Virus record (IMG/VR): IMGVR_UViG_3300032246_002986 | Location: 22,541-86,540 of that record | Source: a virus | Strand: one strand, 5' to 3' | DNA length: 64,000 nt | Shown: piece after piece, positions 20,101 to 52,752 of the stretch | Numbering within the stretch: the first letter of the stretch is position 1 | Layout: each line of letters begins with the position of its first letter | Program-made: the position numbers and the translations under genes | Notes under the pieces: generated by a model | What the model was told of the DNA's origin: nothing | Databases searched by the model: none | Seen by the model: the letters and a program-made list of their open reading frames with translations, nothing else

Positions 20101-23100
20101 ACCTATCACTTTGACTGTAGTGCTGCCTGTGTAACCTGTGCCAGAACTTACCACATCTATCCTGATAACCTGATACTTGTGATTGTTATTCCAAGGCTGA
20201 TATATGGCTTTGGTTTCGATCAGGTTGGTGTCCAAGCTATTTCCCAGCTGTGGACTGCGATATGTTTTGCTAGTGGTATTGTAGTAACTGGGCAAATCGA
20301 AATCGCTCACACCAGTATTGGCGTAATCTGGACTGTTTTTATTGTCGTACTTGGCCACATATTGCTTCAACTTGGTGTGGAAAGGTTTGACTTCTTGGAA
20401 GAAGTCCGTGACAATGGTTTCTGGTTGTGGCAAGTATACTGGCAGTTTGTCCAGACCTCGGACACGGTGATAGATGTCTACGAAACTGGTTTTAAACAAC
20501 CAATCATTTTGCAGATGTTGATTAGCGGCAGTATCTATCATTATCTTGATGAGATTCTTGAATTTGCTGCGATATTCTGCAATCAGCAGCTGGTTTTGTA
20601 CCACTTCAAAAATATGTCTGAATTCTATGTTATTGTCGCTAGCGAATCCTGAAGCTTCCAGGCTTGCAGTCTGATAACCAAATCCCGCTGATACCTGATC
20701 ATATAGACTGGTGGCAAATTCGATAGTTCCATTTTGTTGGGCTATCAATTCTATGTTGTTATTGTTTATCAGCACGATTTTCCAACCATTGCTGGTGCTG
20801 TTCTTGATATAGATTATCTGGCCAACTTTAAGGTTTATATTGCTTAAATCTCGTTCTGTATCCAGGATGTAATCAAAAACGATGCTGTCGTTATACTTGG
20901 TGCTGTACCAATCCTTATAGGACCAATAATTGTTCACATTGAATTTTTGTACTTTATACAATGACCAAGATCTTGTACCCACGGCGTCGCTGACAAGTTT
21001 ATACACAGCCCATCCTTTAGCCGTGATGTCATCGCTCACTAATGCCAGATCATCTATCAGATATTCATTTTTATTAAGGAATTCCAATTCTTCATTGTTG
21101 TTTACTTTTACAGTGTATGTGTCTGCGATGGGTTCTGCATCCACATAATCCAGTGACTCCACAGCCTTGTTTCTGGTCAATACTATGGGAAACTCTGTGC
21201 ATATGGCATTCAGTTGCTCTATATAGAACTTTCTTGCAGTGAAGCTATCCTTGAATATGTTTTGGCGAGGTCTGAGATCTATACCATATTTCTCATTCAA
21301 GCTCAGAGCAGGATCCGGTACCATTCTGGTACCGCTGTCTTGGTTCGCCAGACTGTCATTTAGCTTATTAAGAAACTCTTCTGCTACACCTAGATCTGTT
21401 CCATCATCGAACAGTGTCCATTCCACGTGGACAGGTTTGGGGTTATTGATAGTTTTATATTCCACTACCACATTGGTGTCGTTATTGATTAAACTAGCAG
21501 CGTTGTAAATGGCGAAGCTGCCGGAATTAATGACAGTGGCAAAAGCATCCTGGGTATTTTTAGGATTAGCTATGGTGTTCTGGATTTCCAATGCAGTGGG
21601 ACGGGATTGACCTGGTCTCACTCTCAAGCTGTTGCGTACCCAGAAGTAGTACCTGGTCACCGGTAATCCAGTCTTGGTATCGATAACCACTTTTGTGCTG
21701 TAAACATTGTTTACAGTGTAAAGCGGAGGACTCAGCGGATTCTTAGCAGCATAATCGCTGGGGATAAGATCGCTTTCGATCCATTCGTAAATGCTCACTG
21801 TGCTGTTGGGGAAAGCCAGGGACCAGGTATTGAACTGATCCAGGGTGGATCCCTGAGTGTAGTCATAATATTTGATACTGTTTGTATCCCACCACAGGCT
21901 GCCTACTTTTTCCGGACCCCAGTTATTTTTCTTGTCAAAAGCAAAACTAACTGTAGTGGGAACGTTACTGTATGTGGCAGGATCATAATTGACACTGTAA
22001 TCGATATAACTTTCCATGCTGTTTGGCAGCTTATTTTGGAAAATGTCCACTATAGGCAATTCTTTTATCAATAAACCAGTGGTAGTGTTATACAGATAGA
22101 TCCTGGTTATTAGACTGCTATCGTGCTTAGTTTTGGATTGTCTGATAGTCTGCCAATTGGGTGTGCTAGTTTTATTATAGTAAACGTGCATCACACCAGT
22201 GGGATTGCCTAAAGTTTTACCATTCGGTGCCCCCACTACGATATACTGTTTACCTATGTCTATGCCTGTGCTGAATCTATCCAGACTGGAGATTGTCTTG
22301 GTGCTGATAAGACTCGCATATGCAAAGTTTCCGATATCATCTGCAGTCTCTGTGAGGCTTTGTTGATATTCATACAGATGTGCTGCACCGCTGCGATATA
22401 TTGTATCGTAATATCTGAGACTGAAACGATCAAAACTGGTTAAATTGTTGTCGAATGTTGTCGTCAGACGATTGTTGCTCAGTGTGGCGCCGATTACAAG
22501 GCTGTTGCCCCAATAATTCAGATTCAACTTTTCACCGAATCTTTCTGTATCCTGATTCAATGGACTGAATATTTTCTGGACCAGTTTAACTGGACTTAAA
22601 CCCAACTGACCCACGGTATTGATTAGTTCTTGTCCTGCGACAGGAACGTTGCGGATATCTAGTTTGTTGTTGCTTGTGGTATCAGTACTGTCGATCTTGA
22701 TATAACCGCTGCTGCTTATACTGGCAACTACTCCTCTGATATTTGCCTGGTTGATATCATTCACTGCACTGGCTATGGTATTACCAGTGAATGTAACTAT
22801 GAAATCATTGATACTGATCTTGCTACCAGTGAATTGTTCACTCAATGTGCTGACTGTGCCGGTCACAGAGCCGTACTGTCTTCCTACATCCACAAATCTA
22901 TAAACTATACCATTGTTGGTAGTGGTGTTATTGAAGTTAGGTGCGCTGACATAATAGCTACAACCAGTGGGACAGACAGCGACTTTCTGGCCAAAATTCA
23001 TTTTTTCCTGGCCGCTGTCTGGATACAATGTGTTTTTCAATACCAATTGATTGGTGTCGATTTTAACTATGCTGTCTGTGTCAGGAACATTAGCCAAGCT

Positions 23101-26100
23101 GATGAAATTATTTGCAGCATTATACGTAAAGCCGGACACGACACCATCCACATAAACAGTGGGATCGCTGATATTGCTCACGGTAGTGAATGTGCTGACG
23201 TTACCGTTGGCCACATATTTTTCCGCAGATCTGGCAAATAGATATGCTTGCCCATTTTTGTTATAGATGACATCTCTGGTATAAGAATGGTCCGGATCTC
23301 CCACCAAGAGCAGGCTGCCGTCGGAATTGGTACTGATACTGGTTCCCAGGCTGATGGATTCCAACTTGTCCTGATCTAACAGGCCAACTTCTTTGAACCA
23401 GCTGCTATAAGTGAGGTGGATGGCAGCGGCATTGGCTGGAGGATAATAAAAAGTTATGCTATCAGCATCTGGTGTTTTATAATAATCCACATCAGGAATC
23501 TGTAAGATACCGTCAACTGTGATTTTCACATCTCTTGCTGTCAGACTTTGGTTCAATGCATCGTTAGGAAAGGCAAATTCGCTGGTAGCACCAGTACCTA
23601 TACGGTAACTGACATTGCTGGTTACTTTCTTGTATTTGTAAGACCAGACATTATTGGTCACCACATCGCTGACATACATCCAGCTACCATCGCTGCTCAT
23701 GATTACATCAGTACCGAATGTACTACCTGGAGCCAGATTGGGATAGATGGTGAGCCTGGTACCAGCTGCTATAGTCGCAGTATTATTGATGCCTATGATG
23801 CTATACAGATTGGTGCCGCCTGGCCACAAGTTGTTGATATAGGTGTTGGCTGGTATGCCACTACCCAGTATAGCCATACCATTGGCCAGACCGGTCAAAC
23901 TACTGGTGTTGGCCAGCAAGATATTGGCATTGCTGGTGCTTGTGACGCCTGTGGTGAGATAGTTATAGTTGTCATAATGTATGACCTGATCCAGAATTAT
24001 GGCCTGGCTGTTGGCGATGGCGACATATACACTGCCCTTGCTATTATATTTTGGTGCTGTTATGGCTACCAGATTGTTGTCATTGATATCCAGGTTGGTA
24101 CCGAAACCGCTGCCACCCACATTGATATTGTTGCTGACCTGGCTGAATATCTTGACGAAGATGTTGGCGCCATTGGATACAGCACTGTTGAACACCAGCA
24201 CGTTGGGACTGTTGATGGTGTAATTGGCTGATGTGACGATGTTTCCGCCCACGCTAACTAGTGTGTTGCTGGTGCTGGCTCCATTAGGCAATATGAATGT
24301 TGTATAAGTGCCGTTACCTGTATTGCCATAGAGTTTAGTAGAGGTATAAGTCACACCTCCCTGTCCCTGGCCAGGATCTAGACTGCTTATCTCTCTCCAG
24401 TTACCGCTCTGATCCTTGTTGTAGACAAACACCTGACCGCCGAATCCTTTATCAGGTGCGCCTACAACAGTGATGCTTTCACTGGTATTGATTCTTATGC
24501 TGGTGCCGAATTGATCTGCTGGTACACTATATGTGGGACTGTGGGTCTCACTGTAGATCCAATTGGCTTTGTTTTGTTTGACAACGAACTCATCTCCGTT
24601 ATCGATGTAAACTATTTCCCCAGTCAACCAACCTCTCACAGGTGTCTTGTATGTGAAATCCTGAACGTTGCTGAATCGTACATTTGTTAACTTGTACACG
24701 TTGGCATTCAAGCTGCCGCTGCTGACAGTGCTGTTGTTGGTGATTTTCACAGTGAAGCTGGTATTGGTGGCTCTGGTTACACGGTAAAAACCGCTGAGAT
24801 CTATAACGCCGGCAGTGGTGCTACTGGAGCCAGTCTTGGCGTTCTTGAGCATGACATAATCCAGCACCACGAGTTTGTGGGGGATATCTGTTATGAAAGT
24901 TATCTCTGTGGGACTGGTCTGGTTTACGTTGATAACTTTCACATTGCCATTGGCTGAAAGTCTATAAACTCCCCACTGGTTGCTGCTGTCAGCAGCTATC
25001 CAAATCTTACTGCCTTCGCTCAAGATGGTGTTTAATTTACTAATATTGTATATTTTGTTTATATCGAACACAGTGGCATTGACATCTGTCAACTGGACAG
25101 GTCCTGCACTTGCATAGTTTTCTTTAGGTGCAGTAATGGCAGTGAATGGTTCCAGTGTGTAGGATTTGGGTTTGATCAACAGGTCTGTGTACTTCACACT
25201 GTTGTAGATATCGCTGCGCTGGTCGGTCTGGGACACAAACTCGAACAAATAATTGTTGTTTATGACTTTACTGTTGGCAAGACTGAATTCGATTTTTTCT
25301 CTGTTGCTGATGCCACCGTAGCTGCCGATCTTCACAGCCCATTGTTCTTTGATCTCCAGGTCGGTGTTCAAACGATTCTGGCTGTTACGCAGGAAGGCAT
25401 TCATTACCGCCTGTGTGCCTTTTTGCTTGATCATACCCAGATAGAACTTGTATTGGCTGGTGCGATCCATACCCAGATCCGTGAAATACTGGCGATCCTG
25501 GAATCCGAAAGCGTGTTTGCTTTGTCTATCTGCCGTGGTATTGAGGTCTGGACTGTCGCTGTCGTAGAAATTGGTGAACTGAGCTGCTTGGCTTGCCATA
25601 TTTGGCATCAGTTGCTTGTTGAGCATATCGCCGTTTATCTGATACCAGTTACTGGCGGTAAATTTCTTGTTGCCAGGGATGAAGTTTTGTGCAGCATAAT
25701 ATTGATTCTTATAGAGTACTATATCACCTTTGTAATAATCAGTGAAACTGGCCCATTGTTCCACTGGCACGTGATTTATCAGGAACCCAGGAGCATAAAG
25801 ACTACCGTTCCATTCACTGGTTTTAGCACCATCCAGACGCAATCTGAACTGTCTGCTGCCGATCTTTTCTTCATACAGCACATCGTTGAACACTGTTTTG
25901 TTATCGAACACCAGGCAATGTTCATATTGTACCACTGCTATGTCCAGCAGGTGTATGCCTTTTTGTTGGTTTTTCAGATTGATATTGAAATAATTGTCTT
26001 CACGGTATACTCTGTAATCGCGACCCGTCAACACTACCCCGTCGCTGTCTATGACTTTGGTATAGTTGTGATCATTGGTTATTTTATCCACGATACCGAA

Positions 26101-29100
26101 AGGACTGTTGAAACCCAATTTGGTTCCAGCTGGTGTGAGACTGATAACGGTGCTGCTGCCCCAATTCTGCTGATTCCAGAACAGGAATTCTTTTGCACTC
26201 AATGTGAAATCAGATATAGTGGCATTGTCTGGCAACAGGTTATCGAAAACAAAACCCTGATTTTCCAGATATCTGCCATAGCTTATCAGGAAGTCCACGA
26301 CCTGTTGTTGGCTTGTGAAAATGGTATTATAAGGATAGCTGGTGACAGAGTCGTAACTGTCCTGATAGACGATAGCACGTTCGCTACCGCTGGTGATGGT
26401 GTAGTTGTTGTTGGTGACACGGCTGGGTATCACCAGGAAGTATGGTCTTTCTTTATCGAATCCATTGATCTGGAAACCACTGGCTGTCTTCTGGATGATC
26501 ACAGCACTGTAGACGGCACGGCTCACAGGCGCACTCTTGCTTACTATCAGTTCATAATTCTCAGCAGGTATCAGGATACTGCTGTTGCTGCTCTGTGGGC
26601 TTACCTGGTCGGCCACCACTGTGAGATAACTCTTGTCAGTGAAGCCTGCCATCTTATACACCAGATTGAATGTGCTGTTTTCCACAACATCGGTCCAGTG
26701 GCTCTGGCTGTCCAGGTTCAAATATGTGAGACGTTCTTGTATCCAGATGTTTAAACCTGGCACATATTCGCTAGGGCTGCTTAATTTGAAATCGAACATA
26801 CGATTATTGTTGGCAACGTTTATGATCTGATCCAGTTTGCTGTTGTAAACCAGGTCTCTGGTATTATACTTCAATGCACAATATTCTGCAGGACGAGCCA
26901 GCATCCAGGCCAGTTGCACAGCGAATGGATAGTCACTGCTGCGTCTCCAGGCTGTCTCCTGTGGACTTTGGTCGCCTATCCTCCAATTATCTGCTGCTGT
27001 GCTGTCATCATATGATGTCACGATGCTTTGCAGCGGAGGCAACAGGTTACCGTGTTCATCCACTGGGATTATCTTGGTCAAACCTGGTCTGGAATAACGG
27101 GTATCGATATAACTGGCACTGGGATTGCCGTTATACACTTTACCTGCTTCCAGATCTTTCCACAGGCTCAAATTTTGTCCTGTGTAAGGCGCAGGTCCAT
27201 AATAGGCTTCCCACCAGGTTGGTTTAATGCTGAAACCCAGCATTTCCCAAGGATGAGTATGAGGTCTGTCTGTGTCATAGAAGTACTGATAGATACCTCT
27301 CCAATAACCAGGAACCGTATCTTTGAACAACTTGTCCGTGGCTTTGCTGTAATTGAAGCTGAATAGGTCGCTGGTCTTGACAAGTGCTTGTAGCGTATTC
27401 TCGAATACGTTGACCTTATTGTTGCTGGCCCAAGTCAAATAACTGGTGGCCAGCAGTTGTGTCCACTCAGCAAGGCTGTAATCAGTTTTACGGAAAGCAC
27501 CTGGCACCACACTGGGCAGATCGAAATTGCTGTTGTTCTGGTATGACACCTCTATGTTGTTGTAAACACGTTTTTCATATTCCAACAGGATATAGTCTCT
27601 GTAGTCGCCGTAAGCAACGGTGATGCTGCCATCGTGTCCCACTATGACCTGCTGTGCGCCGCTGCTGTAAGTGTCATCAGTGCGTATTTCAGGTATGAAC
27701 TTGGGGTATAGTCCCAGTTTAGTAGGTGTTGCTGGCACACTGCATCCGGCAGTAGTTGTGTATTCGTGTACCTTCAATACATCATTACGCACTATCGTCA
27801 GGCTGTCCAGTAATGTCAGAGTGTAGTTTACTAGGCTGTAATCCCTGTCTTTAACCAACAGAACGTCGTTGAGATAAATCAATACTGCCTGATAACCATA
27901 GGGTTTGGAAGCATAACTGTTTGTCAGATTAAATGTGCGATAAGTGGTATTTGCTATGGTATATTGGTTTATGATGTAACTGTTGCCAAACGCCACCATA
28001 TCTGTGTAATAGTAGTTGCTGGTAATCATGCTATTCTGGTTGAAATTCTGCAGGATTATATCCACACAATCTTTATAATTGCTGCTATTGGGGAATTGGT
28101 TGTTATTCAAATAGTCTATGAATTGGTATTTGAAATTCTGGTAACTTTGCGCTGCAAATACTATGGCTTTAGCAGGATCAGCATCTTGGTTAGCCAGCAT
28201 CAGAGCAGCTGGTCGTAGGCTAGCACTGTGCTGTAGCAATTTACCACCGATATTGGTGTAATTGATATCACGGAAATTATTGCTACCAGCAGCACTACCA
28301 GTCATCTCCAAGCTGTTATTGCCTATTTCGATCAGATGGTTACGCAGATCTCCCAGCGTAACTTGTGTTAAATCTTCGTTACCGCTGTTGAAGTTAAGAT
28401 TTTTAGGTATGCTGTAATCTTGCTTATAATTTAAACTGCTTCCGAATATTTTTATGAAAACACGATCAGTAGGCACCAGAGCAGTGGCGAAAGTTATCAC
28501 ACAGCTGGTATTGCTGGTTTTGATGGTGTAATCGGTATTCTGTGCTTTTAATTTACTGTTGACGTAAACGAACAGATTATTTTCAAAATAGCTGTTGCTG
28601 TATTTGACATCCAGATCGAAATTATTTGTCTGTAATTCAGTGACATCTATGGTTTTACAGATGTACTGCTTGCTCTTATCTGTAACGCTCTTCCATCCAT
28701 TGGCGAATTTGTAATTATCGTAACCATTGATGATAGCAGCATAACCCATATTGATGTTTTTTACTGTATCGGCTTTATTGTAGTTGTAATTGAATAGGTC
28801 GGTGTTGTAGTAATTTTCGAATACTATGTCGCCGATATTCCCTATGTTTTTATAGACAAGCGGAAAACCCAGTTCTGTATCACGACTGCCTGTGCCTATG
28901 GCATAATTAAACAGGTAGCTTCCTGCGAAATTACTGCTGGGATATGCACCAGTATCGCTCAAACTGATGCTGTCATTGTCCAGGATGTCGAAAAGAGGAA
29001 ACTGTGGACGACTGGTCTTCTGTTGGCAAGCGATGTATTCATTGTTTAGGAATTTGTAAACCTGTCCCTGTCTCACTGTGCCTTCCATTGCAACCACAGT

Positions 29101-31599
29101 GTCTCCATCAGAAAGTTGTTTAACGGGCACCAGGTTGATTTGGCTAGCTGTGTTGTCCAGATAAAATTCGGTGGCTCTGGGAATGTCTACTACCAGGTTG
29201 TTGCTTAAATAGACCAGATTATTGACTGTGTCCACGTATTTGACAGTGGCAGTGATGTTATTGCCAAAAATATTAGTGATTTCTGTACTGGTATTGGTAT
29301 CCATACAATAGCTGTATACTTTTTGTCCTTGCACTATGTTATTAACATCATAGACACTGATGACATTCGTACCCGCTGTGCTGTAATTATAAGTTGGATC
29401 CGTGGTATATGTGGCAGCGTTTACGTTGCGACTATAGTAGCTGGTTATCCGATAGACTGTCTTCCTTACCTCTGGATCGTGATCATTAGCAAACACCACT
29501 GTCAAACCATCCAGCAATTCTATACCGTCGGTGTCGAACACACCATCTGTATTGATGGCTCCGCTGTTCAAACCTTCCACTTCCAACATAGCATTGTTTA
29601 TTTTAGTGTCAATTACTGTGACAGGACCTGCAAAGTTATCTCCGTAATTGAACAATTTAAGATCAGGCAGGAATTCGATGACAGGTCTTTTGGCCTGATC
29701 AGCACTGTCGAAAACAAAAACCTGGTTGGAAACATCTGCTGCATATTGCAAAACATCACGATGGAACCAGCGATTGTTACGGCTCCAAGGATTGCCGTCT
29801 CTGCTGCTGCGATTGATCACCATGTAATCTTTTTGTGTAGGAGCATTGAGAGTGGCATCGAAGTTACCAGCATCATATGTGGTATCACTGAAGTAGTCAC
29901 TGATGTTGTTGTTGATAATTTCCGGGGTGACTAGATCTTGCCAAGGTATCAATTTGATGCCTTTGCCCACTTGTTCTACCACGTACTCATTATCCTGGTA
30001 AGACTTGGGATAGACGTTGCCTGTGAATTTAATTTTCAGTCCGCTGGTGAATTTCACACCATTGGGACTGATATATTGATCTCTGCCCAAGATCTGGTTG
30101 ATGTTCAATTGGGCACTGCTGCCGCTATCAACCAGGTTGATCACTCCATATATCAGGGGATTATCCGCATCCTGATAGTAAAGCGTATCCACGTTGGCTG
30201 TGAGATTGGGGAATGGCAGGACCTGACCACTGCTGTTCTTGTAGCAGTACAGATGCCCATATTTGGTTCCCTGGTTGACGAAAGTCTTATATTCATTAGG
30301 CCAGCCCGTTTCATAGGTCAATTTGATTTTTCTGAAATCAGGATTGGGTAGCTGGTTGTAAAAACCCACGAATACACCTGTGTTGGTCACTGTGGCAGGT
30401 TGGCTCAATACCAGAGTGGTAGTTCCTGCCCCGCTCACCACAGTGGTACTTGGCACTATGCCCTGACCGTATATGGCCTGACCGTTGACGATTCCGGTGC
30501 TGCTGGCAACTGTGATAGTGTTTGTGCTCAACAGCGTGGCAGTGGTGCTTGCTATCAGGCCACTCAATATGGTGGGATTGCTGTTGGTGACTACACGCCA
30601 GATTCCTGTGCGTTGTTCCTGTGGCACATCTGCCCAGGTATCCGCATAAGGAACATTGATATAGATCAATTTGTTGTCAAAGCTACGCACACCATCCATA
30701 TTGTACTGGGTGATGAAATCATCGTAATTTTGATCCTGCATCTTGTTGTAGGGCACATCCACGATCATATCGATTGTCAGGATATCAGGTAGGTTTAACA
30801 GTCTATCCTGTGCATCTTTAGTAGGCACATTGAAAATCAGGGTACCCTGATCCTGTCCGTTATTGACCACGCCCAGAACATCACGTGGGTTGATGTTGCT
30901 TTGTACAGTGCTAGTGCCAGTGGTGCCTATTTCGCTCTGGATCCAGAATCGGTGCCCTGGCTGATTCAATGCAAAAGTGTATTTGCCACCTCGTTGTAAT
31001 GTTATAGTGGGATTGGTGCTGCCTGTGTAGCTGCTGATGTTATAACCGCTTTTGCCGATGCTTGCGCTCTGTACTTCAGTCTCATCGGTGGTCACATAAC
31101 TGATGCGGTCCACAGTGAAATTCTTTTCCAGAGGCACACCTGCCGCTGTGACATCCACTGTGAGCGGGCCATTGGGAACCCAATAATATTGCCTGTAATT
31201 GGTCAGCTTGTCCAGATCCACGAAGCCATCATAATTGTAGTACTGGTTAGTGAACAGGCGGCTGTGATCGTTGTTCAGGCCACCGTTGCTGCTCAACTGG
31301 TTCAGCAATTCAGGATAGCTGTATACATTGTCTATCTTGTAGGTATTGCTATTGAATTGTTTCTTTTTGACTATTACGCCTGGCTCTAACTGGTAAAATT
31401 GGCTGTAACTGTCTGCTTCCCCGATGTAATAATCGTTCTTGTCATATATGGTGCTCTGATCTTGTTGACCGATATATCCGAATATCTTTTTGAGACTGGG
31501 TTCCTGTATCAGTTGATCCACTGTGGCATTCAACAGTCTCTGATTAGTCGCAGTACGAAAAACACTGGGTAGAAATTCGGAACTTTTACGCTTTGCCAT
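17101..31599 (-). CDS. Giant baseplate structural protein (4832 residues), gp7 position
   Basis: A single uninterrupted frame of 14.5 kb, AAGG before the ATG, nine bases after the gp6 stop. T4 has the much smaller gp7 (about 1000 residues) at this place, so this is a positional counterpart; homology to gp7 was not visible. The N-terminus (SSEFLPSVFRTATNQRLLNA) resembles giant structural proteins of aquatic T4-like phages. The chain is a mosaic of beta modules: at least eight units of about 70 residues with a vyVnG..DYt...v.F..aP..gd.V.I pattern, and seven FG-GAP-like repeats at residues about 2360-3140. There are very few cysteines and no membrane segment. It probably forms a large wedge or peripheral part of the baseplate and could carry host-binding surfaces. 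Transcription is probably by read-through from the gp6 late promoter. Confidence 0.8.
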   Translation of the reverse strand: MAKRKSSEFLPSVFRTATNQRLLNATVDQLIQEPSLKKIFGYIGQQDQSTIYDKNDYYIGEADSYSQFYQLEPGVIVKKKQFNSNTYKIDNVYSYPELLNQLSSNGGLNNDHSRLFTNQYYNYDGFVDLDKLTNYRQYYWVPNGPLTVDVTAAGVPLEKNFTVDRISYVTTDETEVQSASIGKSGYNISSYTGSTNPTITLQRGGKYTFALNQPGHRFWIQSEIGTTGTSTVQSNINPRDVLGVVNNGQDQGTLIFNVPTKDAQDRLLNLPDILTIDMIVDVPYNKMQDQNYDDFITQYNMDGVRSFDNKLIYINVPYADTWADVPQEQRTGIWRVVTNSNPTILSGLIASTTATLLSTNTITVASSTGIVNGQAIYGQGIVPSTTVVSGAGTTTLVLSQPATVTNTGVFVGFYNQLPNPDFRKIKLTYETGWPNEYKTFVNQGTKYGHLYCYKNSSGQVLPFPNLTANVDTLYYQDADNPLIYGVINLVDSGSSAQLNINQILGRDQYISPNGVKFTSGLKIKFTGNVYPKSYQDNEYVVEQVGKGIKLIPWQDLVTPEIINNNISDYFSDTTYDAGNFDATLNAPTQKDYMVINRSSRDGNPWSRNNRWFHRDVLQYAADVSNQVFVFDSADQAKRPVIEFLPDLKLFNYGDNFAGPVTVIDTKINNAMLEVEGLNSGAINTDGVFDTDGIELLDGLTVVFANDHDPEVRKTVYRITSYYSRNVNAATYTTDPTYNYSTAGTNVISVYDVNNIVQGQKVYSYCMDTNTSTEITNIFGNNITATVKYVDTVNNLVYLSNNLVVDIPRATEFYLDNTASQINLVPVKQLSDGDTVVAMEGTVRQGQVYKFLNNEYIACQQKTSRPQFPLFDILDNDSISLSDTGAYPSSNFAGSYLFNYAIGTGSRDTELGFPLVYKNIGNIGDIVFENYYNTDLFNYNYNKADTVKNINMGYAAIINGYDNYKFANGWKSVTDKSKQYICKTIDVTELQTNNFDLDVKYSNSYFENNLFVYVNSKLKAQNTDYTIKTSNTSCVITFATALVPTDRVFIKIFGSSLNYKQDYSIPKNLNFNSGNEDLTQVTLGDLRNHLIEIGNNSLEMTGSAAGSNNFRDINYTNIGGKLLQHSASLRPAALMLANQDADPAKAIVFAAQSYQNFKYQFIDYLNNNQFPNSSNYKDCVDIILQNFNQNSMITSNYYYTDMVAFGNSYIINQYTIANTTYRTFNLTNSYASKPYGYQAVLIYLNDVLLVKDRDYSLVNYTLTLLDSLTIVRNDVLKVHEYTTTAGCSVPATPTKLGLYPKFIPEIRTDDTYSSGAQQVIVGHDGSITVAYGDYRDYILLEYEKRVYNNIEVSYQNNSNFDLPSVVPGAFRKTDYSLAEWTQLLATSYLTWASNNKVNVFENTLQALVKTSDLFSFNYSKATDKLFKDTVPGYWRGIYQYFYDTDRPHTHPWEMLGFSIKPTWWEAYYGPAPYTGQNLSLWKDLEAGKVYNGNPSASYIDTRYSRPGLTKIIPVDEHGNLLPPLQSIVTSYDDSTAADNWRIGDQSPQETAWRRSSDYPFAVQLAWMLARPAEYCALKYNTRDLVYNSKLDQIINVANNNRMFDFKLSSPSEYVPGLNIWIQERLTYLNLDSQSHWTDVVENSTFNLVYKMAGFTDKSYLTVVADQVSPQSSNSSILIPAENYELIVSKSAPVSRAVYSAVIIQKTASGFQINGFDKERPYFLVIPSRVTNNNYTITSGSERAIVYQDSYDSVTSYPYNTIFTSQQQVVDFLISYGRYLENQGFVFDNLLPDNATISDFTLSAKEFLFWNQQNWGSSTVISLTPAGTKLGFNSPFGIVDKITNDHNYTKVIDSDGVVLTGRDYRVYREDNYFNINLKNQQKGIHLLDIAVVQYEHCLVFDNKTVFNDVLYEEKIGSRQFRLRLDGAKTSEWNGSLYAPGFLINHVPVEQWASFTDYYKGDIVLYKNQYYAAQNFIPGNKKFTASNWYQINGDMLNKQLMPNMASQAAQFTNFYDSDSPDLNTTADRQSKHAFGFQDRQYFTDLGMDRTSQYKFYLGMIKQKGTQAVMNAFLRNSQNRLNTDLEIKEQWAVKIGSYGGISNREKIEFSLANSKVINNNYLFEFVSQTDQRSDIYNSVKYTDLLIKPKSYTLEPFTAITAPKENYASAGPVQLTDVNATVFDINKIYNISKLNTILSEGSKIWIAADSSNQWGVYRLSANGNVKVINVNQTSPTEITFITDIPHKLVVLDYVMLKNAKTGSSSTTAGVIDLSGFYRVTRATNTSFTVKITNNSTVSSGSLNANVYKLTNVRFSNVQDFTYKTPVRGWLTGEIVYIDNGDEFVVKQNKANWIYSETHSPTYSVPADQFGTSIRINTSESITVVGAPDKGFGGQVFVYNKDQSGNWREISSLDPGQGQGGVTYTSTKLYGNTGNGTYTTFILPNGASTSNTLVSVGGNIVTSANYTINSPNVLVFNSAVSNGANIFVKIFSQVSNNINVGGSGFGTNLDINDNNLVAITAPKYNSKGSVYVAIANSQAIILDQVIHYDNYNYLTTGVTSTSNANILLANTSSLTGLANGMAILGSGIPANTYINNLWPGGTNLYSIIGINNTATIAAGTRLTIYPNLAPGSTFGTDVIMSSDGSWMYVSDVVTNNVWSYKYKKVTSNVSYRIGTGATSEFAFPNDALNQSLTARDVKITVDGILQIPDVDYYKTPDADSITFYYPPANAAAIHLTYSSWFKEVGLLDQDKLESISLGTSISTNSDGSLLLVGDPDHSYTRDVIYNKNGQAYLFARSAEKYVANGNVSTFTTVSNISDPTVYVDGVVSGFTYNAANNFISLANVPDTDSIVKIDTNQLVLKNTLYPDSGQEKMNFGQKVAVCPTGCSYYVSAPNFNNTTTNNGIVYRFVDVGRQYGSVTGTVSTLSEQFTGSKISINDFIVTFTGNTIASAVNDINQANIRGVVASISSSGYIKIDSTDTTSNNKLDIRNVPVAGQELINTVGQLGLSPVKLVQKIFSPLNQDTERFGEKLNLNYWGNSLVIGATLSNNRLTTTFDNNLTSFDRFSLRYYDTIYRSGAAHLYEYQQSLTETADDIGNFAYASLISTKTISSLDRFSTGIDIGKQYIVVGAPNGKTLGNPTGVMHVYYNKTSTPNWQTIRQSKTKHDSSLITRIYLYNTTTGLLIKELPIVDIFQNKLPNSMESYIDYSVNYDPATYSNVPTTVSFAFDKKNNWGPEKVGSLWWDTNSIKYYDYTQGSTLDQFNTWSLAFPNSTVSIYEWIESDLIPSDYAAKNPLSPPLYTVNNVYSTKVVIDTKTGLPVTRYYFWVRNSLRVRPGQSRPTALEIQNTIANPKNTQDAFATVINSGSFAIYNAASLINNDTNVVVEYKTINNPKPVHVEWTLFDDGTDLGVAEEFLNKLNDSLANQDSGTRMVPDPALSLNEKYGIDLRPRQNIFKDSFTARKFYIEQLNAICTEFPIVLTRNKAVESLDYVDAEPIADTYTVKVNNNEELEFLNKNEYLIDDLALVSDDITAKGWAVYKLVSDAVGTRSWSLYKVQKFNVNNYWSYKDWYSTKYNDSIVFDYILDTERDLSNINLKVGQIIYIKNSTSNGWKIVLINNNNIELIAQQNGTIEFATSLYDQVSAGFGYQTASLEASGFASDNNIEFRHIFEVVQNQLLIAEYRSKFKNLIKIMIDTAANQHLQNDWLFKTSFVDIYHRVRGLDKLPVYLPQPETIVTDFFQEVKPFHTKLKQYVAKYDNKNSPDYANTGVSDFDLPSYYNTTSKTYRSPQLGNSLDTNLIETKAIYQPWNNNHKYQVIRIDVVSSGTGYTGSTTVKVIGDGTGATATVEILNGGVYTVNVTNMGKDYTYAQVVVYGLGTGAKVVPILGNNVARSFDTTIKFDRYTYFNNIQDWQADTTYSIDTVVVNNFEPYRVIANHTSTEKFDFTKFLPLKVKVWYPYTDYDAHDIIIYNRASYVAEINKVTTYTTDSVKTSYPIDQTNNTNSILVTNDNIIVTLNSTALTENIDYVIIRDNINSPNVVFFTAPASAGTLSINYKLASVFTSKNVFDMEYLSAYNGLWLDNACDRIWSYYSPTLGQAGKDLAQLMTGIHYGGVNVLGPVFVATPNYDIVNFDTKTYDVQTKDISGVYDTAGNYEEDTNIISSYTDSKLGLRPEDIIVLGGEYVDTYSSHAPEELVPGIMSDTLDIKVRTLAGSGGPEIKVFSTGASKGVLSYSFDPAVTGVSWPQSGIEKILVFNDNSGPKGNPQAENTDFTIDWYNKTVDFTTSPQDGDGLYFIMLGSTGVNPVYDLNLYADGAETDFDLTDNVLSDVQQAYVKVNGSKVNNWQLVNKLTNGRKILSVRFDTPPAENDFVQIHLYNLALGTRAYTEITEQTFVVNSSSPSYASDYTFYLSNPAEYVDPIGAYTIVRLNQNDLIPSQQSYYIGDAITTTFTLTDSYVKDYSIVISDDIVVVVDGVTKVDTIDYTLNKRSVTVGSVTTWYVDVVFTTAPALNSKITIGDYSSADYRIYGNNTLILSNRITLNQYDVVTAVTMGNHDVTGLYTKIFSGSTNTTTVIDLGFDNNGFESPFDNELNTVAILNSTFTLPVPVYNYNQLYITLKDPNTTGGYNLSPYSEYYLQTPTKLILSDDLGVSSNSTIVVRIFASDTRQNAVEFRIFKDIQDNTKYYAVKPNKTTYLKQDLNLTDTWMYVDDVSKLQNPDASNNLPGIVFVNGERIIYGYSDRINNRLGNLRRGTAGTGAATVHQAGTLVQDTGSFMEIPNSQDTIITADKDILLSNGYNNTRLIANGSVFTQGVMFVNPGESILTSNKTQAAFLRTS
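22180..24522 (-). repeat. Seven FG-GAP-like protein repeats, putative beta-propeller
   Basis: Seven units in the giant protein follow an FG-x-x-(5)-(hydrophobic)-G/S-A/D-P-x-(n)-G-x-(V/Y) plan, as in integrin-alpha FG-GAP blades. They start near residues 2364 (FGTSIRINTSESITVVGAPD), 2504 (FGTNLDIND..AITAPKY), 2627 (FGTDVIMSSDGSWMYVSD), 2754 (LGTSISTNSDGSLLLVGDPD), 2867 (FGQKVAVCPTGCSYYVSAPN), 3020 (FGEKLNL..LVIGATLS) and 3104 (FSTGIDIGKQYIVVGAPN). Small beta modules are inserted between some blades. Confidence 0.6.
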
Positions 31600-46566: not shown

Positions 46567-48339
46567 ATGTTGGAATTGCATAATTTAACTGTTAAGAATT
46601 TCATGAGCGTGGGCAACAACACCCAGGCCGTGAACTTTGACCGTAGAGACCTAACCTTAGTACTTGGTGAAAATTTAGATTTAGGAGGTGATGATACTGG
46701 GGCCAGAAATGGCACGGGTAAAACCACAATTATCAATGCTCTGAGTTATGGTCTCTACGGTCAGGCGTTGACCAACATCAAGAAAGACAATCTGATCAAC
46801 AAGACCAACGGTCGCAATATGCTCGTGACCGTGGAATTCGCCATCAATGGCAAACAGTATCGCATCGAACGCGGTCGCAAACCCAATGTCACAAAGCTGT
46901 ACATAGACGGCAACGAACAGACCGATTACACAGACAGCAGCCAGGGTGACAGTCGTGAAACACAACACGACATCGACAAGCTGCTGGGCATGAGCGTGGA
47001 GATGTTCCGCCACATTGTGGCACTCAACACTTACACCGAACCTTTCCTGAGTATGCGTGTGAATGATCAGCGACAGATCATCGAGCAGTTGTTGGGCATC
47101 ACTATACTCAGTGAAAAAGCAGATGCACTCAAAGAGCAGATCAAACGCACAAAAGATCTGATATCGGAAGAAAAGATCCGCATCAAAGCTGTGCAGGATG
47201 CCAACGAGCGCATCGCCACGCAGATCGATAATCTCAAAAAGAGACAGAAACTTTGGATCGCCAAGCAGGAAGAAGATTGCAATAAACTGGAACGCAATCT
47301 CAGAGATCTGGCCGAAGTGGATATCGATGCTGAAATCGTAAATCATAAATTATTGGCAGACTATCACGATCGTGTCAAAAGGAAAGCAGATGCGGAGAAA
47401 TGGATTAAAGCCATACAGCAGGATAAGGTTAAGGAAGAAAGAAACCAGACCAAGCTGGAAAAAGAGATCGCTGATCTGGAAAACCACACGTGCTACGCTT
47501 GTGGCGGTGCGCTCCACGATCAGAAACACGAAGAAGTCCTGTCCAGTAAACGAAAGCAACGACAAGAGTGCGCCCTACAGCTCTTGGCACTGAACACCCA
47601 AGAATTAGAACATCTGGATGTGTTACGTGAAGTGGGCAAAGTGGGCGATATGCCCAGTGTGATCTATGACACACTGGAACTGGCGCTGGATCATCGTAAC
47701 ACACTGGAAAATCTGGTGAAAGCACTCACTGCCAGAGAAGAAGAAGCAGATCCATATACCGATCAGATCACAGATATGGAGACCACTGCACTGGAAGAGA
47801 TCACCTGGGATCAGATAAACAATTACACAAGCATCCAGGATCACCAGGAATTCTTGCTCAAGATGCTCACAAGCAAAGACAGCTTCGTACGCAAAAAGAT
47901 CATCGATCAGAATCTGGCTTACTTGAACAATCGGCTGGCTGCGTATTTGTCGGCTATAGGATTGCCACACGAGGTCAAATTTCAGAACGACCTGAACGTG
48001 GAGATCACTGAGCTGGGCCGCGATCTGGACTTCGACAATCTGAGCCGCGGCGAACGCAATCGGTTAATCCTGTCTCTGAGCTGGGCATTCCGCGATGTGT
48101 GGGAAAGTTTGTACAAGCCTATCAATCTCTTGTTCATTGACGAGCTGATCGATTCAGGTATGGATGCATCAGGTGTGGAAAACAGTCTGGGTGTGCTCAA
48201 ACGCATGAGCCGGGAACGCAGCAAAAGTGTATTCCTGGTCAGCCATCGCGACGAGCTGGCTGGTCGTGTGAACAACATACTCACAGTCACCAAGGAAAAT
48301 GGCTTCACGTCTTATGGCAGCGATGTGGAGATGGCATAA
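46567..48339 (+). CDS. 46: Recombination endonuclease subunit gp46 (Rad50/SbcC type)
   Basis: 590 residues (T4 gp46: 560). The N-terminal half-ATPase has the Walker A motif GARNGTGKTT at about 45-54. Two coiled-coil arms follow (about 180-300 and 320-400), separated by a zinc hook CYACGG with C309 and C312. The C-terminal half has the ABC signature LSRGE near 492 and Walker B LLFIDE near 521-526. ATP binding drives closure of the gp46/gp47 complex on DNA ends. The gene directly follows gp47, as in T4, but appears to have its own leaderless promoter. Confidence 0.94.
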   Translation: MLELHNLTVKNFMSVGNNTQAVNFDRRDLTLVLGENLDLGGDDTGARNGTGKTTIINALSYGLYGQALTNIKKDNLINKTNGRNMLVTVEFAINGKQYRIERGRKPNVTKLYIDGNEQTDYTDSSQGDSRETQHDIDKLLGMSVEMFRHIVALNTYTEPFLSMRVNDQRQIIEQLLGITILSEKADALKEQIKRTKDLISEEKIRIKAVQDANERIATQIDNLKKRQKLWIAKQEEDCNKLERNLRDLAEVDIDAEIVNHKLLADYHDRVKRKADAEKWIKAIQQDKVKEERNQTKLEKEIADLENHTCYACGGALHDQKHEEVLSSKRKQRQECALQLLALNTQELEHLDVLREVGKVGDMPSVIYDTLELALDHRNTLENLVKALTAREEEADPYTDQITDMETTALEEITWDQINNYTSIQDHQEFLLKMLTSKDSFVRKKIIDQNLAYLNNRLAAYLSAIGLPHEVKFQNDLNVEITELGRDLDFDNLSRGERNRLILSLSWAFRDVWESLYKPINLLFIDELIDSGMDASGVENSLGVLKRMSRERSKSVFLVSHRDELAGRVNNILTVTKENGFTSYGSDVEMA

Positions 48340-48863: not shown

Positions 48864-49099
48864 CTATATGCACAATATTAACTGAACCACTGGCTAATTT
48901 ACAGATAGAGATTACTGCCTATAATAACAAAAAAATAAAAGTATCTACTATTAACCAGAATTTTAAAATGGAGCAGGTCCACGGAGGGGTCAACACAGGC
49001 AAAGAAGATCGTTATGTGTTGTTGGTCACTGTGGAATTGGATCAGCAGTTCATAGACAAATATAAGAAAAACGTACCTGTTTACAAGTATGAATGTTAA
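48860..49099 (+). CDS. Small protein of unknown function
   Basis: 79 residues from the ATG at 48860, which shares ATGA with the stop of the nuclease gene; a GTG at 48854 is an alternative start. The protein has alternating strands (LANLQIEITAYNNKKIKVST, RYVLLVTVELDQQFIDKYKK) and no recognised motif. Its end overlaps the PP-loop gene by 11 nt, linking the recombination genes to the accessory island. It could be a partner of either neighbour. Confidence 0.6.
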   Translation: MTICTILTEPLANLQIEITAYNNKKIKVSTINQNFKMEQVHGGVNTGKEDRYVLLVTVELDQQFIDKYKKNVPVYKYEC

Positions 49100-50321
49100 G
49101 ACGCGACATCAGACTATAAGCCAGCCGGTGTGGCAAAGTCTATTCAACAGGTCAGTGAGACCCCATTACACAGTTGCTGGTAGACGTTATGATACAAAGC
49201 TACAAGCCATACAAGAAACAGAAAAAATACGCAAAGCGACAGGAGATAGCATCTGGAGCATAATAAAATTCCACTGTTTCGATGAATTAACAGATCATGA
49301 TTTCAGCATAGAACCTGCAGAAAGCTATCAGGAACTGTGCATACTAAGAGCGCATCAGTTGAGAGCAAAATACCAGAGCATCAGGCTATGGTATAGTGGC
49401 GGAGCAGACAGCCACACAACACTAAGAAGTTTCCATCTGGCCGGATTATCCATAGATGAAATAGTCATATTGCGTAACACCAGCATAGGCACAGATGCGC
49501 CTAGCAACACAGAAACCACCAATCTGACAATTCCCAGCATAGCCAGGATACAAGGATGGTTTCCTGGTGCCAAGATCACCAGTCTGGAATATGTGATAGA
49601 TGTCAATATTAAAAACCATATAGATGACAAAGATTGGCAAGCCAGACTCAGCAAGCTGGTATTACAGAGTCCTGTGACCAGGAATATGGCCAACAGTTTC
49701 GATCTGGACAACAGTCTAATGATAGCTTACAACAAAACCAGCCATTGCGAATTGGTGGGCGAACCCAAGCCCAGTCTGATAAAAAAACAGGGCCACTGGT
49801 ACACTTATATCGTGGACAATCAAATAGACACTAGCCTGATGTTACCAAATCTGGAATTGTTCCACTTCAGTCCAGATCTGCCACAACTATATGTGAAACA
49901 ATGTCATATGCTGAAGAATCAATATGAGCTGCTGATGACAGATAAACCCGACAATTACAGCCAGACATTGGACAAGGATTTCACACAAAAAAATATTTTT
50001 TTGCAGAGATACAACGAATGGGACACGGATAATCACAGCCACAAGCATCATCAATATGCAAAAAGATTCGATCACAATGGCGACTTCAACACCACAGTGT
50101 ATGCCATGCAGCGGTTCCAAAATGATGAATATTTCCACGATTACATAACAAATTTCCGTGAGGTTTTATTCCAAGAAGTTTATGATCCTCTAGCGGATTA
50201 TTTCCATAATGGCAGATTATTCCGCACTCCAATAGGTATGATCAGTCGCTTCTGGAATCTCAGCAAGCCAGGTAGTGCCAGTTGCGATGAATTATGGCCA
50301 TTGGGCTTCGGCAACTACTAA
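49089..50321 (+). CDS. PP-loop ATP-pyrophosphatase-like protein
   Basis: 410 residues. The strand-loop LWYSGGADSHTTLRSF has the PP-loop SGGxDS at 103-108, which binds the ATP pyrophosphate in the N-type ATP pyrophosphatase superfamily (asparagine synthetase B, tRNA-modifying thiolases, NAD synthetase, PAPS reductase). These enzymes activate a carboxylate, amide or base by adenylation. The flanks do not match a specific subfamily that I recognise, and no glutaminase domain or CxxC pair is seen. The Tyr/His-rich C-terminal half (YNEWDTDNHSHKHHQYAKRF) is unusual. It overlaps the previous gene by 11 nt. It may modify a tRNA, a nucleotide or a peptide; the substrate is open. Confidence 0.7.
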   Translation: MNVKTRHQTISQPVWQSLFNRSVRPHYTVAGRRYDTKLQAIQETEKIRKATGDSIWSIIKFHCFDELTDHDFSIEPAESYQELCILRAHQLRAKYQSIRLWYSGGADSHTTLRSFHLAGLSIDEIVILRNTSIGTDAPSNTETTNLTIPSIARIQGWFPGAKITSLEYVIDVNIKNHIDDKDWQARLSKLVLQSPVTRNMANSFDLDNSLMIAYNKTSHCELVGEPKPSLIKKQGHWYTYIVDNQIDTSLMLPNLELFHFSPDLPQLYVKQCHMLKNQYELLMTDKPDNYSQTLDKDFTQKNIFLQRYNEWDTDNHSHKHHQYAKRFDHNGDFNTTVYAMQRFQNDEYFHDYITNFREVLFQEVYDPLADYFHNGRLFRTPIGMISRFWNLSKPGSASCDELWPLGFGNY

Positions 50322-50443
50322 GTAAATCTGTAGCGCCGACAAGACGCCGGAATAAAACACGACGCGAGGAATACTCCTTTATCAGGCATAGCCCAGAGAC
50401 GCCGTTCCGTATGCAGCATCACTGCTAACTCCCCATAAAATTC
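50322..50443. other. Intergenic segment with short hairpins
   Basis: About 120 bases between the PP-loop gene and the TctC promoter. GC content is higher than in the surroundings. The octamer AGACGCCG occurs twice (near 50342 and 50397). Short stems are possible: AGGA-atac-TCCT followed by TTTAT near 50374, GGC-ata-GCC, and GCAG-catca-CTGC near 50421. The first could be a weak terminator of the PP-loop gene. No open reading frame or tRNA is seen. Confidence 0.35.
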
Positions 50444-50472
50444 TAGACAGGACTTGCGATTTCCTGTATATT
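50444..50472 (+). promoter_or_regulatory. Host-type promoter of the TctC/TctA genes
   Basis: TAGACA (50444-50449), 17 bases, TATATT (50467-50472). Expected +1 near 50479, giving a short leader that contains AAGGAG (50481-50486) five bases before the ATG at 50492. Unlike the leaderless genes, this one has a clear Shine-Dalgarno site. Confidence 0.6.
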
Positions 50473-50491
50473 ATCAGAACAAGGAGTGATT

Positions 50492-51409
50492 ATGACTAAA
50501 TTTTATAGATTATTTGTTGTGGCGATCCTGACAATGGGATTGCCCATCTCAGCAACTTATGCACAGACCAAACAGCCTAAATTGACGATAGTACAAGGTG
50601 AAGCACCTGCCAGCAGCGGCTTGGGTATGCAGAATCTAGTGATAGAGGAACTACGCAAGGGTTATGACGAGATCAATATCATCAGCGTCAGCAACTGTGA
50701 CAAGGCAGCACAGGTCTACAACAGCATCACAGATACACCAGCAGTGTATATCCACACCAGTGAATACCAGTGGCTGAAAGAAGCAGGTATGCACACCTGT
50801 GGTGTCAAGATGTCACACGACAACATCTGGATGAATGTGGAGATGGCACAGGGTTTCTGTACCAAAGGTCCGGGTCCAGTGACATTCGAGGACTTCAAAA
50901 AGAGCAAGACTTTTGGAAGCATCGTGCCTTTCAGTCTCACAGACACAATGGTGGACCAGATCAACCGGGAACTTAAAACAGACATTAAAAAGATACCTTA
51001 TAATGGCGGCAGCGGTCTGGCACTGACTGGTATCCTGAACGGAGAGATAGATTATGCTCCCATTGCCTTGTTCCGTGTGTTGGATATGATGGAAGACAAG
51101 CGTGTGGCCTGCTTCGCCAAATACGGTCAAAGCAACGACAAATTGCCCAGCATACGCAATTTCATTCCCGGATTCTCCCTGGGAGATTACGTGTGGAACG
51201 TAGCTGGTGCAGCCAAGAATATGAATGCAGAACAGTTGAAGTATCTGCGAGATTTACATCAGGCCAGCTTGAAAAAAGGCACAGTACTACGCAACAGCCT
51301 GGACAAAGGAATGTGGGATGTAGCACAAGGGGACGAAAAAGAACTTTGGCGCAGATATAAAATCCAAGAAGACATTTTTGTAAGCTCGCTAGCGGCAGCT
51401 AAGAAATGA
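50492..51409 (+). CDS. TctC/Bug-type periplasmic solute-binding protein
   Basis: 305 residues from the ATG at 50492, chosen because AAGGAG lies five bases upstream. A signal peptide is clear: KFYR, a hydrophobic core to about residue 20, then ATYA before the cut near residue 24. The mature part fits the TctC (Bug) receptors of tripartite tricarboxylate transporters: IPYNGGSGLALTGILNGEID is the usual ligand-pocket signature, and the length is typical. Such receptors bind carboxylic acids or amides in the periplasm and deliver them to TctA. The stop overlaps the TctA start (ATGA). A phage-encoded copy would act in the host envelope and could change nutrient uptake during infection. The ligand is unknown. 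Confidence 0.78.
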   Translation: MTKFYRLFVVAILTMGLPISATYAQTKQPKLTIVQGEAPASSGLGMQNLVIEELRKGYDEINIISVSNCDKAAQVYNSITDTPAVYIHTSEYQWLKEAGMHTCGVKMSHDNIWMNVEMAQGFCTKGPGPVTFEDFKKSKTFGSIVPFSLTDTMVDQINRELKTDIKKIPYNGGSGLALTGILNGEIDYAPIALFRVLDMMEDKRVACFAKYGQSNDKLPSIRNFIPGFSLGDYVWNVAGAAKNMNAEQLKYLRDLHQASLKKGTVLRNSLDKGMWDVAQGDEKELWRRYKIQEDIFVSSLAAAKK

Positions 51410-52752
51410 TAGGTTTTACATCTGGCAACATTCTGGTCATGACCAGCGGTATATTTGTGGGTCTTGTCAGTGGAATGTTGCCAGGGTTGACGATGATAAC
51501 GCCCACGCTGGTGCTGCTGCCCTGGTTATTCCAGTTGACAGCAGCCCAGATAATACTCTGGTATGCCACTGTACTGATAACACATCAGTTCATAGGCAGC
51601 GTAATAGCCACTTATTACAGTGTTCCCAATGACGACGCACATTGGCCAGCAGTGCTAGAAGGTCACGCCTTGTACAAACGTGGATCAGGACCAGAGGCCA
51701 TACAGGCAGCAGCTTTCGCTCATGTGATCACTATGATAATGAGTTTGCTACTGATGCTGGCCATAAGCGATGTAAGCAATCAGATAGCTTTGTTTTTCGA
51801 TACCAGGATACAAGCGGCAATTATAATACTAGTGATAACTGGTGTATTTGCTGTAAACAGCGAACCTGTCTGGGTAAAATCACTGATGTTGATATGCGGC
51901 ACAGCTTTGGGTTTCCTGGGAGAGTTGAACAGGCAATACCTGCACTGGGATATAAGTTATACAGATATAAATTTCAGCGATGGTATACCTGCTGTTCCCC
52001 TGATAGTGGGCATATTTGCCCTGCCCAACTGCATCAAAAACAATCAACAACTGCTGTCCACCGTCAATGTAGCACAGTTGCAAACCAAATTTTCAGATTT
52101 TAGGTACTATTTTACCAGCATATTTCACGGTTTGCTGGGTTTCATTTTCGGGTTGACACCGATGCTGACCAACGATGTTGCTGCAAATGTCAGTTATAAT
52201 CTGCAGAAATGGTGGCGAAATTTCCGACAAAAATATCGTCCTGGAGATGTCAGCTGCCTAGTAGCAGCAGAAAGTGCAGCCAATAGTGGGGCTGTAATCA
52301 GTCTAATGCCGCTGTTATTATTAGGGATTCCCATAACAGCTAGCGAGGCAATGATATACAGTGTACTAAACAGCAAAGGGTATGCTTTCAGTTTGAGTAA
52401 TTACGATTCCTATCTGATTCCTGAAATATTGGGCTGTCTGATCCTAGTAGGAATAGTGAATTATATCATAAGCGGTCCTCTCAGTGAGATGTTTGGAAAA
52501 TTGTATCTGTTCCTGAAAGATAGAGCGTTATCGGTGATTTTACTGCTGTTGGCAGCGAGTGTGTTGTATCAGGGATATAATCTATATTCATTGAAAGAGT
52601 ATTTGACTGTCATGCTTTCAGGCTTTATAATAGGTTATAGTTGTAAAAAATATAACTTTTATGTACTGATTTTTTGTTTCTTGATGGCTTCTCATACGCT
52701 GGATATTTTCTTGCGTATGTGGGTTTTCGCTAAAATTTATATACAAGGATAA
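51406..52752 (+). CDS. TctA-family transporter membrane subunit
   Basis: 448 residues with about ten hydrophobic segments. GMLPGLTMITPTLVLLPWLF at 23-42 matches the first conserved TctA signature (G-x-x-P-G-x), and SLMPLLLLGIPITASEAMI near 301-319 matches the second (lGiPgs...a). TctA proteins are the large permease subunit of tripartite tricarboxylate transporters; typical members have about 500 residues. The usual small partner TctB (about 150 residues, four segments) is not encoded beside it, so either the host supplies TctB or the pair works alone. Translation is coupled to TctC by ATGA. The first signature has Met-Ile in place of small Gly/Ala residues in common members. Confidence 0.75.
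   Translation: MIGFTSGNILVMTSGIFVGLVSGMLPGLTMITPTLVLLPWLFQLTAAQIILWYATVLITHQFIGSVIATYYSVPNDDAHWPAVLEGHALYKRGSGPEAIQAAAFAHVITMIMSLLLMLAISDVSNQIALFFDTRIQAAIIILVITGVFAVNSEPVWVKSLMLICGTALGFLGELNRQYLHWDISYTDINFSDGIPAVPLIVGIFALPNCIKNNQQLLSTVNVAQLQTKFSDFRYYFTSIFHGLLGFIFGLTPMLTNDVAANVSYNLQKWWRNFRQKYRPGDVSCLVAAESAANSGAVISLMPLLLLGIPITASEAMIYSVLNSKGYAFSLSNYDSYLIPEILGCLILVGIVNYIISGPLSEMFGKLYLFLKDRALSVILLLLAASVLYQGYNLYSLKEYLTVMLSGFIIGYSCKKYNFYVLIFCFLMASHTLDIFLRMWVFAKIYIQG

Follow-up and report, generated by a model that had tools for sequence, protein, structure and literature searches.

Bacterial TTT systems normally include TctB, and most nutrient-uptake genes known from phages encode a single component that works with a transporter of the host. 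In most archaea, TctA without an adjacent TctB is the rule (PMC5898192, PMC5812351), and a viral tctA is on record from SUP05 single-cell viral contigs (PMC4164917, reviewed in PMC6359870). Our literature search, which reached only a minority of subscription papers and no preprints, turned up no phage TctC-TctA pair and no report of exchange between TTT and ABC importers. Here we describe a phage-borne TctC-TctA pair and consider how it compares with these systems.

The window that we analyzed is a stretch of 64,000 nt, positions 22541-86540 of the 86,540-base IMG/VR record IMGVR_UViG_3300032246_002986. The portal protein is nearest to those of the jumbo phages Atu_ph07 (490 kb), Phosso (469 kb), and PA5oct (287 kb), at 46-48% identity, and the baseplate-hub protein matches RaK2, K64-1, Serratia BF, XaC1, and others at 28-34% identity (337-490 kb among the phages listed, partial records aside). 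These homologues place the record with jumbo myoviruses related to RaK2, Atu_ph07, and PA5oct, and the TctC-TctA pair sits in a genuine tailed-phage genome. Because the portal and hub relatives, including IMG/VR relatives of 220-354 kb found via the hub gene, are far larger (220-490 kb), we regard the record as a fragment, probably covering between one fifth and one third of the full genome. Neither tRNA genes, sought for host prediction, nor T4-type late promoters (TATAWATA) were found within the window. Other features of this phage include an ORF of 4832 aa (window 17101-31599, minus strand), perhaps a giant virion protein; a second phage-borne transporter gene, FTR1-family iron permease-like, upstream of the window (L004 2272-2868, equal to G000 2272-2868; PF03239 28.6 bits, above cut-off); and four radical-SAM proteins in one phage record (L005 7149-10715 and window 54413-55723, both minus strand), some with SPASM-like domains.

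The same pair recurs on a 29-kb contig, IMGVR 3300010885_066742 (loci L003/L006/L007/L010), with identical gene order, overlap, and borders and 62% identity in both proteins. The elements of the pair in the window are these:

50329..50448, plus strand: conserved non-coding leader between a PP-loop-like gene and tctC, 83% identical to L003 over 121 nt
50444..50472, plus strand: promoter-like site TAGACA-17-TATATT, sigma-70-like, 10/12
50481..50486, plus strand: Shine-Dalgarno AAGGAG of tctC, 5 nt ahead of ATG 50492
50492..51409, plus strand: tctC-like gene for a secreted Bug-type solute receptor, 305 aa; homologue with 62% identity at L003 7938-8849
50492-50563, plus strand: Sec-type signal peptide of the tctC-like protein, by inspection, with the end ATYA-QT
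51406..52752, plus strand: tctA, TctA-family permease, 448 aa, PF01970 186 bits; homologue with 62% identity at L003 8846-10198

The two genes overlap by ATGA (50492-51409 / 51406-52752) in both contigs, which upholds the translational coupling of receptor and permease proposed in a preliminary description of this DNA. The coordinates in that description hold. The ORF caller began tctC at GTG 50486; we rejected this start and placed it at ATG 50492 because the AAGGAG ends 5 nt upstream of that codon.

The permease is readily assigned. PF01970 matches the window TctA at E=9.3e-55 (186 bits against a gathering score of 28.9) over model positions 1-418 of 423, so that its description as TctA-like holds across the domain, and it matches the TctA of the second contig at 184 bits; a simple hydropathy scan finds 9 hydrophobic segments in the product. 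The family motif, G-Hy3-G-Hy3-G-Hy2-P-G-Hy-G in TM1, is repeated in TM7 (PMC5812351). When we compared the two phage proteins with 96 cellular homologues, the TM1 copy (G-x3-G-x3-G-x2-P-G) was intact, and its final G is T29, as in 77/96 cellular homologues. Since threonine is the commonest cellular residue there, the motif change noted earlier is real in TM7 only, where PG-x-G has become PMLT in both phages: G253 and G255, which are G in 93/96 and 94/96, are M and T. In addition, LGIPG reads LGIPI in both, a G present in 90/96 cellular proteins. The C-terminus of both copies is short by a median of 39 residues relative to cellular TctA, and the missing stretch holds the last hydrophobic segment. 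Along with the TM1 motif, the near-invariant residues Y264, G280, E289, N293, P302, and P309 are retained.

The receptor is a more distant relative. PF03401 reaches the window protein at E=0.0023 and 17.9 bits and the second phage receptor at 14.3 bits, both below the gathering cut-off of 27 bits, and PHROGs and NCBIfam searches with the receptor matched no TctC family. A profile-profile comparison of the two phage receptors with eight bacterial and archaeal TctC proteins aligned 192 columns at 95% and E=2.8e-08, by which the phage receptor is a remote Bug/TctC relative. Inspection located signal-peptide sites in both receptors (ATYA-Q in the window, AQA-Q in L003), and this, together with the profile match, agrees with its initial designation as a secreted Bug-type receptor. 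The substrate fared differently. The Bug pincer motif P-F-x-A-G-G-x-x-D is kept in neither phage receptor (PASSGLGMQ in the window, PGGGGVGLQ in L003), and because this signature is lost in both, the carboxylate that the preliminary description stated as the substrate becomes a guess. That description had also singled out the pocket residues as bearing on function; in our alignment an aspartate, that of the pincer, and an arginine, each invariant in 8/8 cellular TctC proteins, are lost from both phage receptors, but the IPYNGG region later in the protein is retained, as is the glycine-rich loop at the pincer in L003 (PGGGGVG), less so in the window copy (PASSGLG). AlphaFold models built from two-sequence alignments had pLDDT values of 33 and 37 and were useless.

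TctB had been described as missing, with a four-segment protein to be sought in the rest of the genome. At E<=10, the 86.5-kb record holds no match to PF07331 (TctB), and, apart from the FTR1-like permease, hydropathy pointed to no further ORF of this partial record having some four hydrophobic segments. PF07331 was likewise without a match in 21 related records (four >200 kb), of which only one has a PF01970 match. In all five annotated cellular loci that we read, tctB adjoins tctA, so its absence from both phage operons is a real departure. Because the record is a fragment, the absence applies to the operon and the 86.5 kb in hand and not to the virus as a whole. The system could thus be an ordinary three-part TTT with its tctB at another site in the phage genome, outside the fragment, for which the size of the portal and hub relatives (287-490 kb) and IMG/VR relatives (220-354 kb) leaves room; we consider this unlikely given the constant adjacency in cellular loci and the searches above, with the caveat that only one of the 21 related records carries the permease domain. 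TctB might be dispensed with if TctA acts alone, as suggested for archaea (PMC5898192), if the host supplies TctB, or if the gene resides in the portion of the genome beyond the fragment.

Recurrence also bears on whether the pair is viral at all. Besides the 29-kb contig, a third, 3300010885_053380 (L002/L008), starts inside tctA and is identical to the window at 60/60 residues. Between the first two contigs, tctA has a dN/dS of ~0.13, with silent sites near saturation, and is under purifying selection; for tctC, silent change is saturated and dN is 0.28. IMG/VR scans, with fairly close relatives in reach, found no phage TctA past these two related contigs and no TctC past one of them. Against phage records, tblastn with TctC gave no match and with TctA gave weak matches, the best of them a mislabelled bacterial contig: MT836965.1 (L193), named 'Bacteriophage sp.' in GenBank and marked unverified, has the gene content of a piece of bacterial chromosome, including a complete tctCBA operon. 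Such errors exist, and one could ask whether the present pair is an assembly chimera or captured host DNA with no viral function. That explanation, which we rate as negligible, is already refuted by recurrence: the second contig matches in order and place at 62% identity, the third carries the tctA end at 100%, a conserved leader and a structured RNA flank the pair, and no close cellular relative was found. With this recurrence and the selection on tctA, chimera and decay are both excluded as far as sequence allows.

A bacterial donor, which phylogeny had been expected to reveal, did not emerge. The nearest cellular TctA proteins are about 22-28% identical (tblastn). Scored with a profile of the two phage TctA proteins, a Bacillota genome gave 107.7 bits, and the best of 300 genomes from the order Burkholderiales, sampled around one betaproteobacterial genome, gave 107.7 bits as well; across the donor search, scores in both Burkholderiales and Bacillota levelled off at 105-108 bits. 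A 98-protein tree, its sampling partly pattern-biased, joins the two phage TctA proteins (support 100) outside all 96 cellular sequences, and the branch leading to them is very long. Given this plateau and this branch, no donor clade can be named from these searches and the 96 cellular proteins; the pair appears either to have been long apart from the sampled cellular lineages or to be fast-evolving.

The preliminary description also gave the pair its own promoter. Sigma-70-like sites are not above chance in this region (15 versus 15.0 in shuffles), which weighs against the 10/12 site at 50444-50472. Even so, L003 retains both hexamers (TAGACA/TAGACT; TATATT/TAAAGT) at the 17-nt spacing, while the spacer bases agree at 5/17. 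Spacing kept despite a diverged spacer is a mild argument for use of the promoter, which thus has modest support. The conserved leader matched no Rfam family and folds no better than shuffles; it is possibly a regulatory element.

A broader pattern, overlooked in the preliminary description, emerges from the surroundings of the pair, which occupies a slot between gp46 and the baseplate-hub gene:

46567..48339, plus strand: left slot border, gp46/SbcC-like core gene (phrog_77, E=1e-102)
49089..50321, plus strand: PP-loop-like slot neighbor, 410 aa, SGGxDSHT motif; homologues in L003/L010, L009, and L011
52757..53482, plus strand: downstream gene 4 bp past tctA, 241 aa, HxD...H, 2OG-Fe(II) oxygenase-like; weak Asp/Arg beta-hydroxylase match, E=0.026, under cut-off
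53742..53940 (conserved to 54084), plus strand: structured RNA core of ~199 nt with covariation, at the right slot border before the baseplate-hub gene
55938..56795, minus strand: right slot border, baseplate hub gene (gp26-like), which served to find relatives
L009 13200-15527 and L011 14187-16583, minus strand: complete ABC importer in the slot of sister phages (binding protein, ATPase, and permease)
L003 10265-10460, L009 11264-11465 (minus strand), and L077 3986-4119 (minus strand): examples of RNA copies elsewhere

The hub gene retrieved 80 relatives, in 55 of which both the gp46 and hub borders are visible. Slot contents vary among them: radical-SAM genes and one small conserved protein are frequent occupants, and importers are found in the clade nearest the window. 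Two of these relatives, L009 (3300021142_001757) and L011 (3300025598_000023, a 111-kb record), carry a binding protein, an ATPase, and a permease in a row. The binding protein is NMT1-like with a signal peptide (the Pfam cut-off is passed in L009, not in L011), the ATPases match ABC_tran (PF00005) at E=2e-18 and 4e-20, and the permeases match BPD_transp_1 (PF00528) at E=1e-13 and 9e-14 (L009 and L011, respectively). Binding protein and permease are 40-41% identical between the two phages, whose slots also hold a homologue of the PP-loop-like gene and small oxygenase-like proteins. PF00528 occurs in only 2/47 related records, these two, and PF01970 in 1/21, that of L010. In a baseplate-hub tree, the 5 importer carriers, three with TTT and two with ABC genes, group as a single clade with 100/100 support. 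Since the two next-closest relatives carry an ABC importer at the place of the TTT pair, the locus appears to be an exchangeable slot in which this phage clade swaps whole importers, although five carriers are few.

The RNA at the slot border is a candidate new RNA family. A covariance model built from six copies was run on 57 sources and matched 52 times at E<=1, some of the matches being short or weak, at a constant place relative to the hub gene. Across 44 distinct rows, in an alignment fitted to the structure, 85.9% of cells pair, compared with 39-46% in slid controls, and double-sided changes number 341 against 62-95. No Rfam family matched at the gathering score, with nothing convincing below it, and a search of five cultured jumbo phages did not recover the RNA. 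A wider proposal, which we advance tentatively as possible rather than probable, is that a jumbo-phage clade maintains a dedicated exchangeable slot for whole importers, either a TctB-less TTT or a complete ABC system, with a new structured RNA at its border, and that the TTT version is a minimal two-part system, long viral, with a TM7 chemistry of its own.

In regard to function, the pair is probably a phage-encoded, binding-protein-dependent secondary uptake system of the TTT type, and from its genes we infer import of small organic anions during infection. Once expressed in the infected cell, the secreted TctC-like protein would capture a small organic solute in the periplasm and pass it to the TctA-like permease, seated in the inner membrane; a periplasmic receptor implies a Gram-negative host. 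During phage replication this permease would take up the solute, presumably driven by an ion gradient. No TctB from the same operon would be needed, and the slot would let a clade of jumbo phages retain one importer or another. Because oxygenase-like genes adjoin both the TTT and the ABC versions, it is tempting to speculate that supply of 2-oxoglutarate may link the importer to its oxygenase-like neighbor.

Alternatively, the receptor may be the working part, docking on host TctAB or another permease and retargeting its uptake, with the phage TctA supplementary. Many bacteria have far more orphan TctC proteins than TctA proteins (PMC5812351), and the phage receptor bears a signal peptide. This seems improbable to us, because the coupled TctA is under purifying selection in both phages and both proteins are far diverged from cellular ones. 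The TM7 PMLT and LGIPI changes, the missing last TctA segment, and the lost pincer aspartate mean that substrate or mechanism may differ from those of known systems. The TM7 change and lost pincer residue, common to two phages, might even mean that the pair was repurposed away from nutrient uptake, for instance to sense or to shut other phages out of the cell. The transporter residues that are nearly invariant are mostly retained, however, and the complete ABC importer in the slot of sister phages points to import as a common theme, so we judge repurposing very unlikely and favor uptake. That receptor and channel are carried together, with a full ABC importer in sisters, suggests remodeling of nutrient intake in infected cells by large phages. 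The pair is also a natural system in which to ask whether TctA can function with a receptor but without TctB, an open question for the family.

Our findings fit into what is known of cellular and viral transporters as follows. Like the TTT family (TC 2.A.80; Salmonella tctCBA and the Bug systems), the phage pair couples a PF01970 permease to a secreted Bug-type receptor. It differs in having no operon tctB, an altered TM7, a shorter TctA C-terminus, and a receptor without the pincer aspartate; its TctA is about 22-28% identical to members of that family, and its carrier is a jumbo phage. The stand-alone archaeal TctA proteins (arCOG04469) likewise occur without TctB (PMC5898192), but they are cellular and usually without TctC too, whereas the phage TctA has a TctC-like partner. 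The SUP05 single-cell viral contigs (PMC4164917) similarly place tctA on a viral contig, though as a protein-domain hit only, of unknown role, with no TctC partner named in the main text. Finally, phage-borne PstS and similar proteins are likewise phage genes for periplasmic nutrient-binding proteins (PMC6359870), yet PstS is a single component serving a host transporter, whereas the phage described here carries receptor and permease together.
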